Source of the DNA: a virus
Reading direction: 5' to 3' (one strand)
Length of the DNA: 23,197 nt
IMG/VR virus record: IMGVR_UViG_3300012920_000279
Span: 1-23,197 of that record
The number at the start of each line of letters is the position of its first letter. The stretch's first letter is position 1. The notes under the pieces are model-generated. The model saw nothing but the letters and a program-made list of their open reading frames with translations. It had not been told where the DNA came from and did not search any database. A program made the translations under genes and the position numbers. Positions 474-8,865 of the stretch are shown one piece after another.

Positions 474-1013
474 TTATATAAAGAATTTAGACGACTTGAC
501 AGTTTTTTTCTTTCTTGGTTTCTTTTCTTTTTTAGGCTGCTCTTCCATTCTCAAATTCTTTTGTAAAAACTCTTTAAACTGATTAGTATATTCACCTTGT
601 TGATCTTGTGGTTGTAAGGCAAAATCATCTAAGTTATTATCCATAATAAGTTTATGTTTAATAGTAACTTGTTTCTTTTCTTTTTGTATTCTTCTTACAA
701 AAGCATAGAATATAATTTGTGTAAAATAAGCAAATGGATTCTTAGATTTTACAGGATCAAAATTATCTAGGTATTGTAAACAGTTTTCTATACCATCAGA
801 AATCATGTCGTCTCTAAAAGTATAATTTATAAAATTCGGTCTATATGATAAGTGATTCGCTATTTTTAGAAAACAACTGCCTAAGTAATTATCAACTGGT
901 GGTTTCTCTTTCTTCTCCCTCTTTGCCTTTCTACAAAGTTTTTTGTAGGCTTTCATCGCTTCTAAAAACTGTTTATTATCAACATAATGTTCTTTTTTTG
1001 TTTTTGTGCTCAT
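474..1013 (-). CDS. gp55: gp55-like late-transcription sigma factor
   Basis: The 179-residue product matches T4 gp55 (185 aa) in size and character. gp55 is the minimal sigma factor that directs host RNA polymerase, tethered to the sliding clamp, to TATAAATA late promoters. A sigma region-2-like segment spans about residues 66-114 and includes FDPVKSKNPFAYFTQI followed by VRRIQKEKK, a pattern typical of marine T4-like gp55. The N-terminus and the tail are Lys-rich, and the protein ends in SKFFI; a short hydrophobic C-terminus is where T4 gp55 contacts the clamp, but equivalence here is inference. The gene has its own sigma70-like promoter whose predicted start falls on the ATG, so the mRNA may be leaderless. 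The next in-frame Met is residue 20. It sits just ahead of gp47 and supplies the factor for the late promoters seen elsewhere in the window. Confidence 0.9.
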   Translation of the reverse strand: MSTKTKKEHYVDNKQFLEAMKAYKKLCRKAKREKKEKPPVDNYLGSCFLKIANHLSYRPNFINYTFRDDMISDGIENCLQYLDNFDPVKSKNPFAYFTQIIFYAFVRRIQKEKKQVTIKHKLIMDNNLDDFALQPQDQQGEYTNQFKEFLQKNLRMEEQPKKEKKPRKKKTVKSSKFFI

Positions 1014-1569: not shown

Positions 1570-3046
1570 TTTTTAACTCTATGTTATGTATCTCATAATT
1601 AAATTCTTCACCACTGTATATATTTATCCTTTCTCTAAAATGAGCAAGTGTATAGTTTTCCTTGCCATTATAGGATAAATCGTCTGATATGTCGTATAAT
1701 GTAGCGTTTAGATTGTTGTCTTTTAGTCTTAAACCTCTACCAATACTTTGTAAAATCCTTATAGGACTTTTACTAGGGCTACTAAAAACAATATTGTGTA
1801 GATTACGGATATTGATACCAGTGCTAAAGGTGCCGTAAGAAGCGATAATAATTGCGTTATCCGACTTCTCTGTAATGGCTCTAACTTGTTCTCGTTCATT
1901 TGCTTCTACTCCTCCATAGATGAAAAATACTTTACGGTCTCCTGCTTTCTCTTCGATTAACTTCTTTAGGATTTCGCCGTGTTTTTCAACATATTGAAAT
2001 AGACAAAGTGAGTTGCCTCTTAATGATAAGCACAAATTCCGTATGTATTTATTCCTGGCAGTATTTGAAACGAGATAATCCATTTCTTCTTGGTATGTTT
2101 TGTCTTTGATAAAGTCTCTAGCAATCTTATCATGTTGTAATATTAGACACATAATTTTTAAGTCGGCAAGTTGTTTCTTTTCTTGTAGTTCACTTGTAGA
2201 TACAACTTTATTTACAGTGCCAAATAAACCCTCTAATACTAGTTTATGTGTCTTTGTACCATCTAAAGTACCTGTCAAACCTACTCTGTATTTACACGTC
2301 TCTAATTTAGTCATTATTTTAGATAGACTAACTGCCTTAAATAAGTGTGCTTCGTCACCTACGATCATGCCAAACTGTTTAAACCATACTTTTGGCAACT
2401 TGTAGATAGACTGCCATGTAGATATTATTACTCTTTTATTTGTGTCTTTTTCGTGTCCTTGATATATTTTATGTACGTTTCTTTCACTATTATAACCATA
2501 ATCTTTAAAGTCTTTGAACAATTGTTCTACTAAAGATGTTGTGGGTACTATAATTAAAATCTTATCTTGTTTAGTATCTTTTAGTCTTAACAAGTTAAAG
2601 ATTAACATTAAGTATATGATAAGTGATTTACCTGAAGCAGTAGGCGAGACTAGTAAACAACGATTTTTTTCTATCGAGTGTTTAAATGCTTCTCTTTGAT
2701 AATCTCTGACTTCATGTGGTAGTTTAAGTGCTTTGATTAGATTATCTAATTTAGTATCATCTATTTTTGTATCTTGTATCTTAGTACCATCAACTACTTG
2801 TACGTCATTTTCTTTACACCAGTTTAACACATAAGGATATAAACCTGTGTATATTTGTCCTGTCGCATATGAAAACAATCTAATTTTACCGTCCCATACT
2901 CTGTTTCTAAACTGTGGCATAAATTTAAAACCAGGTACTTCAAACGTAAAGTATTCACCTAACTCTCTTCTAATATCAGCGTCTGCTTCTATTTTGAGAT
3001 AGACTTCGTTTTTCTTATCTATGATTAAATATCTAGTTGTCGTCAT
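1553..3046 (-). CDS. uvsW: UvsW-like superfamily 2 DNA/RNA helicase
   Basis: The 497-residue protein is close in length to T4 UvsW (about 500 aa), which unwinds R-loops, migrates Holliday junctions and shifts replication from origin-initiated to recombination-dependent mode. An N-terminal small domain (1-110) precedes the helicase core. Motif I is SPTASGKS at 134-141, motif II DEAH at 231-234, motif III GLTGT at 256-260 and motif VI QSIGRGLR at 433-440 with its arginine fingers. The ATG at 3044-3046 overlaps the preceding oxygenase gene by 14 nt and the small downstream gene starts inside it, so translation is coupled. The position in the uvsY-uvsW block fits marine T4-like phages. Identification is secure. 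Confidence 0.95.
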   Translation of the reverse strand: MTTTRYLIIDKKNEVYLKIEADADIRRELGEYFTFEVPGFKFMPQFRNRVWDGKIRLFSYATGQIYTGLYPYVLNWCKENDVQVVDGTKIQDTKIDDTKLDNLIKALKLPHEVRDYQREAFKHSIEKNRCLLVSPTASGKSLIIYLMLIFNLLRLKDTKQDKILIIVPTTSLVEQLFKDFKDYGYNSERNVHKIYQGHEKDTNKRVIISTWQSIYKLPKVWFKQFGMIVGDEAHLFKAVSLSKIMTKLETCKYRVGLTGTLDGTKTHKLVLEGLFGTVNKVVSTSELQEKKQLADLKIMCLILQHDKIARDFIKDKTYQEEMDYLVSNTARNKYIRNLCLSLRGNSLCLFQYVEKHGEILKKLIEEKAGDRKVFFIYGGVEANEREQVRAITEKSDNAIIIASYGTFSTGINIRNLHNIVFSSPSKSPIRILQSIGRGLRLKDNNLNATLYDISDDLSYNGKENYTLAHFRERINIYSGEEFNYEIHNIELKNASKV

Positions 3047-3725
3047 TTATTAGAACATTATAATTTTTAAAGTAGCCAGGCATACCTAATCCAGGTCTGC
3101 CATCAAAGTGTGATATACCCTCTGGCTTCATTCTGTTATAGTGTAAAAATAATTGAGCATGATTTACACCTTTAAACTTTTCTCTCCAATGTTCTAAATC
3201 ACAACCTTTATAGACTAACATATCGCCTGGATTCATTCTTACAGGCATTTCTTTACCAGACTTCATCTTAACCCATATCGGCCAACTATAATCTGGATAA
3301 ACATTTTTATCTACGTTAGATACGTCATAACCTAAACATATTGTTGTTGAAAACTCACATGATGGTCTATCTTTATGTCTATCTAATTTTTGTTTTTCAA
3401 AGTACAATCTATAATAAGAATATGTTGGTTGTAATTTAGTTGATGTTATTTCTGATATTTTTTTATGACTTAAATCGCATAAACTATCCATAACAGGATC
3501 ACCGTACATTGAGAAAGCACCTGTAACTTGTTCATCATTAAAAGTACCAAACATTTTATTATCAGTTATTATATCTAAATTTTTATCTTTTCTTTCCATA
3601 ATTAAGGCTTGTCTTTGTGCCATAATTTTTACATGATGATATAATAACATCACTGTTTCATGTTGTAAAAAATTATTTACTACAACAAAACCTTCTTTGT
3701 CAAAGTGTTCTTTCATATTCATCAT
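3033..3725 (-). CDS. Fe(II)/2-oxoglutarate-dependent oxygenase-like protein
   Basis: I chose the ATG at 3723-3725 because it makes a 4-nt ATGA overlap with the stop of the preceding gene and sits about 9 nt after GGGAG; the frame is open back to a TTG at 3749, with another ATG at 3731. The product is 230 residues. It shows a jelly-roll signature: HKD at 117-119 as the HxD iron-binding pair, NPGDMLVYKG before CDLEHW, with His179 as the likely third ligand. Near the N-terminus, KEGFVVVNNFL resembles the opening of hydroxylase and phytanoyl-CoA-like enzymes. It is the middle member of uvsY-oxygenase-oxygenase-uvsW. Substrate is unknown; protein, nucleic-acid or small-molecule hydroxylation are all possible. 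The oxygenase assignment is fairly firm, while the exact 2-oxoglutarate-binding residue is unclear. Confidence 0.8.
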   Translation of the reverse strand: MMNMKEHFDKEGFVVVNNFLQHETVMLLYHHVKIMAQRQALIMERKDKNLDIITDNKMFGTFNDEQVTGAFSMYGDPVMDSLCDLSHKKISEITSTKLQPTYSYYRLYFEKQKLDRHKDRPSCEFSTTICLGYDVSNVDKNVYPDYSWPIWVKMKSGKEMPVRMNPGDMLVYKGCDLEHWREKFKGVNHAQLFLHYNRMKPEGISHFDGRPGLGMPGYFKNYNVLINDDN

Positions 3726-4477
3726 CGCCATGGTCTCCCTAAGAACCAAGCTACTAAAGAGTATCTAGTTCCTTTTGTAATTTTTTGTACAGAGTGTTTT
3801 TGAAATGACGGAAATACAATCATTGATCCTGCTTTTCTTATTTCATTTACTTTGTGAAACTGATCTGTTCTTTGTTGTCCCATATCAAACATTAAATCAC
3901 CACCTTCATATTCTGTGCCCTCATTTAAATTTATAGTACAACTAATTTTTCTAACTTTACCTACATAGTTTTCTGAAAAAACATATGAATATTTTTCTTT
4001 ATCAGTGAATTGTGTTACGCCTGGTACATTTAATTTATACTTCATATTATGGCATGAACCACCGTCTGTATGCCAACCATAAAATTGTCCTTCTTTATAA
4101 ACTGTAAATTGAGGTGCCTCGCAAAAATCAATATCCCAATGCCAACCTGTATCTGAGTTTGCCCTTTTGATTAACGGCCAAAGTATATCGTAAATAGATT
4201 GGTCATCTAAAAAAGCAATTTTACTATCTCTAACATAAGTTTTACTTTTAGCAGCCTCTGTGCCATATTCTTTTTCTATTTCTTGTATTGTTTTATTGCC
4301 TAACTCTACATCAAACCCTTTACTGCCTTTGTAATTATCACTATAAGTTACACCATCATTTGATTGACCTTTACGTCTGTTTTCTTCCATTTTATTAAGA
4401 CCCATAGCAATAACATCTGAACATTGTTGTTTTGTAAGGGCATTTTGATACCAGTAGTATTCATATTTTAAATTCAT
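3722..4477 (-). CDS. Fe(II)/2-oxoglutarate oxygenase, prolyl-4-hydroxylase-like
   Basis: The 251-residue protein is a clear member of the P4Hc/PKHD-type oxygenase group. YKEGQFYGWHTDGG places the iron-binding HxD at His136 and Asp138. The distal motif is VFPSFQKHSVQKI (His228), and Arg238 in KGTRYSLVAWF would hold the 2-oxoglutarate carboxylate. EGGDLMF at about 191-197 is the usual strand of the double-stranded beta-helix. The ATG shares its A with the last base of the uvsY stop codon and the stop overlaps the next oxygenase, so the genes are translationally coupled. Such enzymes are frequent in marine T4-like phages. Their substrates are not established; host or phage proteins, or nucleic acid, are candidates. 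Catalytic residues are all present, so it is probably active. Confidence 0.9.
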   Translation of the reverse strand: MNLKYEYYWYQNALTKQQCSDVIAMGLNKMEENRRKGQSNDGVTYSDNYKGSKGFDVELGNKTIQEIEKEYGTEAAKSKTYVRDSKIAFLDDQSIYDILWPLIKRANSDTGWHWDIDFCEAPQFTVYKEGQFYGWHTDGGSCHNMKYKLNVPGVTQFTDKEKYSYVFSENYVGKVRKISCTINLNEGTEYEGGDLMFDMGQQRTDQFHKVNEIRKAGSMIVFPSFQKHSVQKITKGTRYSLVAWFLGRPWR

Positions 4478-4954: not shown

Positions 4955-5578
4955 CTAAGATGTAGTAATAGTTGTACTTGATGACCCTACTGTAGCAAAG
5001 TCATAAATTTGATATTGAAACTCAACAGTTGCCGTTAAGTAGTTAACATCTGTTGGTTGTTGTGTAAATTGTACACCAGATAATCCTGTAGGATATACGT
5101 CTCTAAATCTTACTTCTAAATTAGCATTGTTTTTACTAGACAGTGTTGTAAGTGTAGCGTCTGAATAAGTACCACCAACATTTTGAGCACCGTATTTTAC
5201 TTTACCTGGCTCTGTATTAACTGCTGTTGTACCACTAGGAAATCTATCATCACCAGAAGCAGCTAAATTTCTAAATTCAGAATTGTCTCTAGGAAAACCT
5301 AACCCTACTAACCAACCATGTATCTCTTGGTAGTTTTCATAATTTTCATCTATCATAAAAGTTAATGATAACGGACTGTATGTTAGATCATTACCAGGTA
5401 TAGGTATTTGTTTAAACTTTGTGTCCTGAGTTAATGCGTTAAGTGATATAGCAGGTATGTTTACCTCAGTACAAAAATATTCTACTTTAGGTAGTTTTAA
5501 AATACTAAATTTAAACTGCGTTGGCGACGCATAATCTAATTTTGTAGGTTGTCTTAAATAACTGTTAGTTGTTGTCAT
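4955..5578 (-). CDS. gp3: gp3-like tail tube terminator / tail completion protein
   Basis: The 207-residue protein begins with a tube-like strand pattern (LDYASPTQFKFSILKLP) and contains NIPAISL followed by LSLTFMIDENYENYQEIHGWL. That last stretch resembles T4 gp3, in which a similar (I/V)DE-(N)-W(L/M) element is found. T4 gp3 (176 aa) caps the tail tube and ends tail elongation. The location directly after gp23 and before uvsY is the usual gp3 site in marine T4-like phages. A TATAAATA late promoter ends five bases before the ATG, so its transcript would start on the start codon. No alternative Met is near. It is also distantly tube-like (gp19 fold), so baseplate-tube initiator gp54 is a less likely alternative. 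Confidence 0.78.
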   Translation of the reverse strand: MTTTNSYLRQPTKLDYASPTQFKFSILKLPKVEYFCTEVNIPAISLNALTQDTKFKQIPIPGNDLTYSPLSLTFMIDENYENYQEIHGWLVGLGFPRDNSEFRNLAASGDDRFPSGTTAVNTEPGKVKYGAQNVGGTYSDATLTTLSSKNNANLEVRFRDVYPTGLSGVQFTQQPTDVNYLTATVEFQYQIYDFATVGSSSTTITTS

Positions 5579-5583
5579 ACATA

Positions 5584-5591
5584 TATTTATA
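5584..5591 (-). promoter_or_regulatory. gp3: Late promoter (TATAAATA) for gp3
   Basis: Exact TATAAATA on the minus strand, ending 5 nt before the gp3 ATG. With T4 spacing (element at about -13 to -6) the start is at 5578, the A of the ATG. The element overlaps the TAA stop of the preceding oxygenase gene. Confidence 0.75.
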
Positions 5592-6213
5592 ATACCTTTG
5601 GAGACTGTCCTATATTAAAAGATATTATAATTCTATCGTTATCTGATTTACTAGGCGAAACATCATGTATTAACCAACCAGGGAAAATTAGACATTTTCC
5701 TGTGTGTGGTGTAAATTTCATACTAGTATAATTTAATTCGTGTAATTCTTTATCATTTGTATAGTGATGTGTTGTATGTGCTTGTAATCTAGGATCATAT
5801 AAATTTAAATTACCACTATCTTTATCTGCCTTTACATAATAAACACCAGACCATAAAGCATTTGTATGACTATGTGATGAATTATAATCATGTTTCTTAT
5901 TAATGATAGACCACATATTTGATATTTTTAAATAGTATTTGTTTGTATCATAATTAAGATTATTACCTAACGCATTAACAGATTCTAATATTGCGTTATG
6001 TATGTTTCTAAACTCAGGTCTATAATTTAAGTCGTCTGTACTATGCCAGCCACCTTCATTTGATCTTTGTAGATTATCTGTTTGTGAGTTTTGTAAATCG
6101 TAAATTTTAGGTAAAATATCGTTATTGATATTTTCATAATTTTTAAGGTATGTTTCTGCTACCTTAGTAGGAAAGTAATTATAAAGGTACATTTCACCTG
6201 TCGCATTATTCAT
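5587..6213 (-). CDS. Putative Fe(II)/2-oxoglutarate oxygenase (2OG-FeII_Oxy_5/TIGR02466-like)
   Basis: The 208-residue product ends with LIFPGWLIHDVSPSKS (His183) and DNDRIIISFNI (Arg194). Upstream it has HSHTNALWSGVYYVKA at about 114-129, the signature of a phage-rich oxygenase family in which an H-x-H/N motif stands in for HxD. The gene lies between the gp23 terminator and gp3. Its late promoter ends 5 nt before this ATG, which has no Shine-Dalgarno sequence. Either the mRNA is leaderless or translation begins at Met8 (6190-6192), which follows CAGGTGAA at very short spacing and would yield MYLYNYFPTKVAE, a more natural opening. The substrate is unknown. Late expression separates it from the two oxygenases in the uvsY operon. 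Confidence 0.82.
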   Translation of the reverse strand: MNNATGEMYLYNYFPTKVAETYLKNYENINNDILPKIYDLQNSQTDNLQRSNEGGWHSTDDLNYRPEFRNIHNAILESVNALGNNLNYDTNKYYLKISNMWSIINKKHDYNSSHSHTNALWSGVYYVKADKDSGNLNLYDPRLQAHTTHHYTNDKELHELNYTSMKFTPHTGKCLIFPGWLIHDVSPSKSDNDRIIISFNIGQSPKVL

Positions 6214-6218
6214 ACAAT

Positions 6219-6226
6219 TATTTATA
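6219..6226 (-). promoter_or_regulatory. Late promoter (TATAAATA) for the 208-residue oxygenase
   Basis: Exact TATAAATA ending 5 nt before the ATG at 6213, so the expected start coincides with the ATG. It lies 7 nt beyond the U-tract of the gp23 terminator, making a compact terminator-promoter junction. Confidence 0.8.
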
Positions 6227-6232
6227 CACGCT

Positions 6233-6262
6233 AAAAAAAAGGGGACCGAAGCCCCCTTTTTT
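6233..6262 (-). terminator. Strong intrinsic terminator after gp23
   Basis: On the minus strand GGGGGC (6256-6251) pairs with GTCCCC (6246-6241) around a UUCG tetraloop closed by C-G, preceded by six A and followed by eight T. The A-tract before the stem also makes it usable on the other strand. It begins about 20 nt after the gp23 stop and is the only GC-rich hairpin with a U-tract that I noticed in the window. Confidence 0.93.
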
Positions 6263-8857: not shown

Positions 8858-8865
8858 TATTTATA
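8858..8865 (-). promoter_or_regulatory. gp22: Late promoter (TATAAATA) for gp22
   Basis: Exact TATAAATA on the minus strand in the gp21-gp22 spacer, just before the end of gp21. The predicted start is near 8852, giving a leader of about 48 nt that contains a palindrome and AAGGAGA ahead of the gp22 ATG. Confidence 0.85.

Follow-up and report, generated by a model that had tools for sequence, protein, structure and literature searches.

Genes and late promoter elements of the window

The region under study lies on the minus strand of the window, by which we mean the whole 23,197-nt stretch analyzed here (IMG/VR virus record IMGVR_UViG_3300012920_000279). It contains two consecutive genes, for a 2OG-Fe(II) oxygenase and a gp3-like tail tube terminator, each preceded by a late promoter element, TATAAATA. 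The features are as follows.

474..1013, minus strand: late sigma factor gp55 homologue (phrog_234, E 2.8e-63)
4955..5578, minus strand: gp3-like tail tube terminator, 207 aa, ATG at the predicted +1 (phrog_45)
5579..5583, minus strand: 5-nt spacer TATGT, read from the sequence, predicted -5 to -1
5584..5591, minus strand: late promoter element TATAAATA of gene 3, exact match
5587..6213, minus strand: 2OG-Fe(II) oxygenase, 208 aa, ATG at the predicted +1 (PF13759, E 1.6e-25; phrog_81)
6214..6218, minus strand: 5-nt spacer ATTGT, read from the sequence, predicted -5 to -1
6219..6226, minus strand: late promoter element TATAAATA of the oxygenase gene, exact match, predicted -13 to -6
about 6233..6262, minus strand: terminator-like hairpin and T run after gene 23, read from the sequence
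8858..8865, minus strand: for comparison, leadered late promoter of the scaffold gene (ATG 8804), predicted leader of 48 nt with the Shine–Dalgarno (SD) sequence AAGGAG

Among isolates, Pelagibacter phage Mosig has the closest gp3 (59.8%), and its gene order and base composition agree with those of the window. On the basis of these three features, the window is read as part of a pelagimyophage-like T4 relative, and the host of the phage would be SAR11. The HTVC008M counterpart of the gp3-like protein is annotated as a tail completion protein. The gp55 homologue of the window is expected to be the reader of its late promoters. Two 2OG-Fe(II) oxygenase genes are found in the head–tail/recombination region (window 3033–3749, 3722–4477, 5587–6213), and the PHROG matches of the gene adjoining them are annotated as ferrochelatase.

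At both sites, the distance from TATAAATA to the ATG (6213 and 5578, minus strand) is 5 nt, and no SD-like tetramer was found at positions -16 to -5 of either start codon. Coordinates, sequence, and SD scan agree here with the preliminary description, which had reported this arrangement. The purine run closest to the gp3 start, AAAGG, is ~17 nt away within the 3' coding end of the oxygenase gene. The oxygenase stop codon TAA (5587–5589) falls within the gp3 promoter element, and the gp3 ATG is located 8 nt downstream of it. Since the terminator-like hairpin at ~6233–6262 lies directly 5' of the oxygenase promoter, the late promoter is the evident promoter of that gene. An out-of-frame ATG, 4 nt 5' of the gp3 ATG (window 5577–5582, minus strand), opens a 5-codon ORF; it would be part of a read-through mRNA but missing from a leaderless one.

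The window has eight exact copies of TATAAATA, all of them on the coding (minus) strand with virion genes downstream. Shuffled versions of the window contained 4.3 copies on average on both strands, and at least eight in 7 of 100 shuffles; the motif count within the window alone is only weakly above chance. For the two genes under study, the predicted +1 is the start codon (spacing 5), whereas the remaining six copies are 16–83 nt from an ATG and give predicted leaders of 11–78 nt, which reproduces the figures reported earlier.

Predicted transcription start

T4 late elements span -13 to -6 (PMC1524935). We examined 58 leadered late promoters from the pelagiphage group (the window and three isolates); spacing 5 played no part in their selection. 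At the sixth base after the motif, 71% have A and 22% have G, which makes 93% purines; the corresponding values for T4 are 64% A and 14% G (n = 22). This purine peak suggests that the T4 start rule holds in the pelagiphage group, and the rule and the peak together would place +1 on the A of the ATG in promoters with spacing 5. Initiation 1–3 nt up- or downstream of the ATG, which would yield very short leaders or mRNAs without the A, is unlikely: variants at spacing 6 and 8 do occur (L051, L052, L006, and L359), but the sharp excess at spacing 5 (see below) and the purine peak at the sixth base favor a start on the A itself. No published 5' end map for any pelagimyophage was found in the literature searched, and the text of a 2025 pelagiphage transcriptome (HTVC022P and HTVC027P) makes no mention of promoters or start sites.

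Spacing in related phages

The distance from the TAAATA core to the gp3 ATG was scored in 80 IMG/VR relatives. The core ends 5 nt before the ATG in 72 of them and 6 nt before it in two, and it is absent in six; the spacing noted in the window is thus constant for gp3 in the great majority of related phages. The gp3 upstream regions form 15 clusters, 13 of which have spacing 5. The clusters hold differing upstream genes, whose stop codon is often inside the promoter (AAATAG or AAATAA), and a terminator is located directly 5' of the gp3 promoter in six relatives (L021, L051, L060, L068, L078, and L079). Because of these varied upstream genes and terminators, the gp3 spacing is not simply inherited along with one upstream gene. 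In the six promoter-less relatives (L014, L015, L016, L019, L025, and L026), the upstream ORF overlaps the gp3 start; its stop is at offset 11 in the two loci checked. A distance of 225 nt to the closest late motif was found in the three loci checked for it. The layout is therefore not indispensable. In the L014 type, the upstream ORF is not fused in frame to gp3, as it ends out of frame just inside that gene.

These loci bear on another explanation, in which the promoter, although genuine, contributes only a minor or poorly translated ATG-start transcript, and most gp3 protein comes from translational coupling on a read-through mRNA. The short distance between the oxygenase stop and the gp3 ATG (8 nt), the stop codon inside the promoter in many relatives, and the L014 type, where the promoter is lost and the gp3 start overlaps the upstream ORF, are in line with coupling. 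However, no upstream gene can feed well those gp3 loci that have a terminator immediately before the promoter, and coupling would not require a conserved exact spacing. We consider this explanation rather improbable.

The gene for the DNA end protector gp2 has spacing 5 in 18 of 25 relatives, spacing 8 in six, and no motif in one. Spacing 5 at gp2 is also found in Mosig, HTVC008M, and Melnitz (3/3). The minor class with spacing 8 includes gp2 of L359 and L361–L365, HTVC008M gp13 (L092:9714), and Mosig gp25 (L093:39800). The leader of this class is predicted to be 3 nt long, and an in-frame ATT or GTT stands at the predicted +1.

The oxygenase gene behaves differently from gp3. A 99% relative, L001, keeps 5 nt, and L006, L081, and L082 have 6 nt. 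The homologues in L084–L087 have an SD-like sequence and a motif-to-ATG distance of 16–19 nt, and they start at the equivalent of Met1. As the spacing varies among the homologues, the leaderless state of the oxygenase gene appears to be a local feature. The preliminary description had offered Met8 (ATG 6192) as an alternative start. In that case, AGGTGA would precede the start codon and the leader would be 21 nt long. AGGTGA is located 1 nt upstream of ATG 6192, and GGTGAAATG is conserved in all relatives read. On the other hand, AGGTGA is very near this ATG, the promoter-proximal ATG is retained in L001, L006, L081, and L082, and the SD of L084–L087 points to the Met1 equivalent, which makes Met1 the better start. 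The distant homologues argue against a start at Met8, although the evidence falls short of exclusion, and we regard it as an unlikely one.

Enrichment of late motifs at spacing 5

Genome counts were based on ATGs opening ORFs of at least 50 aa, and annotation was not used. In HTVC008M, NATAAATA occurs nine times at spacing 5, compared with an average of 0.32 at each other spacing (P 7e-11, Poisson), and the corresponding values are 6 versus 0.59 in Mosig and 3 versus 0.51 in Melnitz. No NATAAATA at spacing 5 was found in T4 (149 kb examined) or Syn9 (100 kb examined), and one was found in P-HM1 (100 kb examined). Cr30 and phiM12, alphaproteobacterial T4 relatives, have few motifs in the 50 kb examined of each. 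All 21 TAAATA-N5-ATG sites in HTVC008M, Mosig, and Melnitz are annotated gene starts, whereas none of the three such sites in T4 coincides with one. In the window and these three isolates, TATAAATA has 11 ORF-opening ATGs at spacing 5; for the 55 other arrangements of its letters (56 in total), the count never exceeds 5 at any spacing.

The collection scans drew on 2.9 million viral contigs, and the ORF-opening rates refer to samples among the matches listed. Among these, an ORF begins at the ATG of 101 of 118 TATAAATAGTATTATG sites and 106 of 119 TATAAATAGTAGTATG sites, which gives 86–89% at spacing 5. When the spacing was shifted by one base, the rate among the matches listed was 24–37% (spacing 6, 29/119; spacing 4, 45/122), and that of a random ATG is ~20%. 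In the same contigs, with the matched sites excluded, 16 TATAAATA were found at spacing 5 versus 1.6 per other spacing. A chance match was ruled out by the permutation, spacing-shift, and T4/Syn9 controls. What had been taken for an oddity of two genes recurs as a class of promoters in pelagimyophages and their relatives.

A compositional or codon artifact, in which AT-rich gene junctions yield TAAATA near an ATG by chance or through the stop-codon context, is extremely improbable. The genome is 67% AT and many sites do overlap the stop codon of the upstream gene. Nevertheless, the effect is specific to TATAAATA among the 56 letter arrangements and to spacing 5 as opposed to 4 or 6, TAAATA-N5-ATG is also present where no ORF ends, and T4 is likewise AT-rich without the spacing-5 effect.

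The spacing-5 products in the collection (70 clusters) are chiefly baseplate wedge proteins, gp3-type tail tube proteins, the DNA end protector gp2, other baseplate proteins, a head–tail adaptor, and the portal. The major head protein and the sheath are absent among the 25 families listed for these products.

Two classes of late genes

AAGGAG-like SDs precede nearly all genes for the capsid, scaffold, portal, and sheath in HTVC008M, Mosig, Melnitz, and the window, and the late promoter of these genes, where one was found, is 25–83 nt upstream. SDs are retained by gp18, gp20, gp22, gp23, and mostly gp19. The genes with spacing 5 are mostly T4-type virion genes (gp2, gp3, gp25, and others), joined in some phages by gp4, gp48, gp13, and the tape measure gene. 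Spacing 5 without an SD leader is seen at gp2, at gp3 outside Melnitz, and, in HTVC008M, also at gp4, gp25, gp48, and the tape measure gene. Melnitz gp3 and gp25 are leadered.

By the copy numbers known from T4, the spacing-5 products are mostly low-copy proteins. Dosage tuning through leaderless promoters, which the preliminary description had suggested for the tail terminator, would fit this split of the genes, with copy numbers taken from T4. A speculative extension, which we consider doubtful, is a two-tier late program: virion proteins needed in bulk would be made from SD-led mRNAs and low-copy assembly proteins from strictly leaderless ones, with a phage bS21 possibly shifting host ribosomes toward one tier. 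Genes for ribosomal protein S21 are present in Mosig (L091:9932–10141), HTVC008M (L092:41228–41431), and Melnitz (L102:35389–35661). S21 is located next to the anti-SD region and might be relevant to initiation without an SD. A bS21 query of bacterial genomes returned no Pelagibacter record.

Proposed mechanism

Here, we propose a mechanism in which the gp55/clamp-type late promoters of this pelagimyophage-like T4 relative would direct initiation ~6 nt after TATAAATA, so that the A of the ATG is +1. The resulting late mRNAs would lack both a 5' leader and an SD, and their translation would rely on leaderless initiation at a 5'-terminal AUG. gp3 might additionally be reached by reinitiation from the oxygenase stop on a read-through mRNA. 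Judging from the sequence comparisons, a conserved subset of late genes is probably transcribed from gp55-type late promoters into leaderless mRNAs, and SD leaders remain in place at the genes for the capsid, scaffold, portal, and sheath. Leaderless mRNAs had been suggested at the outset for both genes under study. For gp3, the prediction is well supported by the fixed spacing, the enrichment at 5 nt, and the purine peak at +1; for the oxygenase, the support is confined to near relatives. From these predicted transcripts we infer leaderless translation and any dosage effect.

Comparison with known systems

The elements of the window are members of the T4-type late promoters (gp55, gp33, and gp45 dependent), with which they share the 8-bp TATAAATA, the purine at the sixth base, the late virion genes, and a gp55 encoded by the phage. 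They differ in the predicted placement of +1 on the ATG as a recurrent class: the smallest spacing from NATAAATA to an ORF-opening ATG in T4 (149 kb examined) is 12 nt, whereas here a whole class is at exactly 5. In leaderless genes of Deinococcus-Thermus, the -10 element abuts the ORF (PMC12340547). A promoter element abutting the ORF and a leaderless mRNA, predicted in our case, are common to both systems, but the element is a cellular -10 in Deinococcus-Thermus and a phage late-sigma element in front of virion genes here.

No published description of a late-promoter class with +1 exactly on the ATG was found in the papers searched, most of them openly accessible. Late-promoter prediction failed in pelagimyophage genomes in an earlier study (PMC7029224), possibly because many elements span the stop codon of the gene before them and are not intergenic. 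Owing to the fixed promoter–ATG distance, leaderless translation of late virion genes becomes a testable and potentially widespread trait of abundant ocean phages. The distance also allows a comparison with T4, where the late elements sit further from the start codon, and provides a start-site rule for gene finders in these ocean phages.

The cyanophage late promoters (S-PM2 and Syn9) share the NATAAATA motif and the family Kyanoviridae, but at gp3 of the cyanophages checked, the motif is 9–15 nt from the start or there is none nearby. In Synechococcus phage S-SKS1 (L413), gp3 is preceded by a terminator-like hairpin and then CTAAATA, 9 nt from the ATG and with no SD, which corresponds to a predicted 4-nt leader in a cyanophage.
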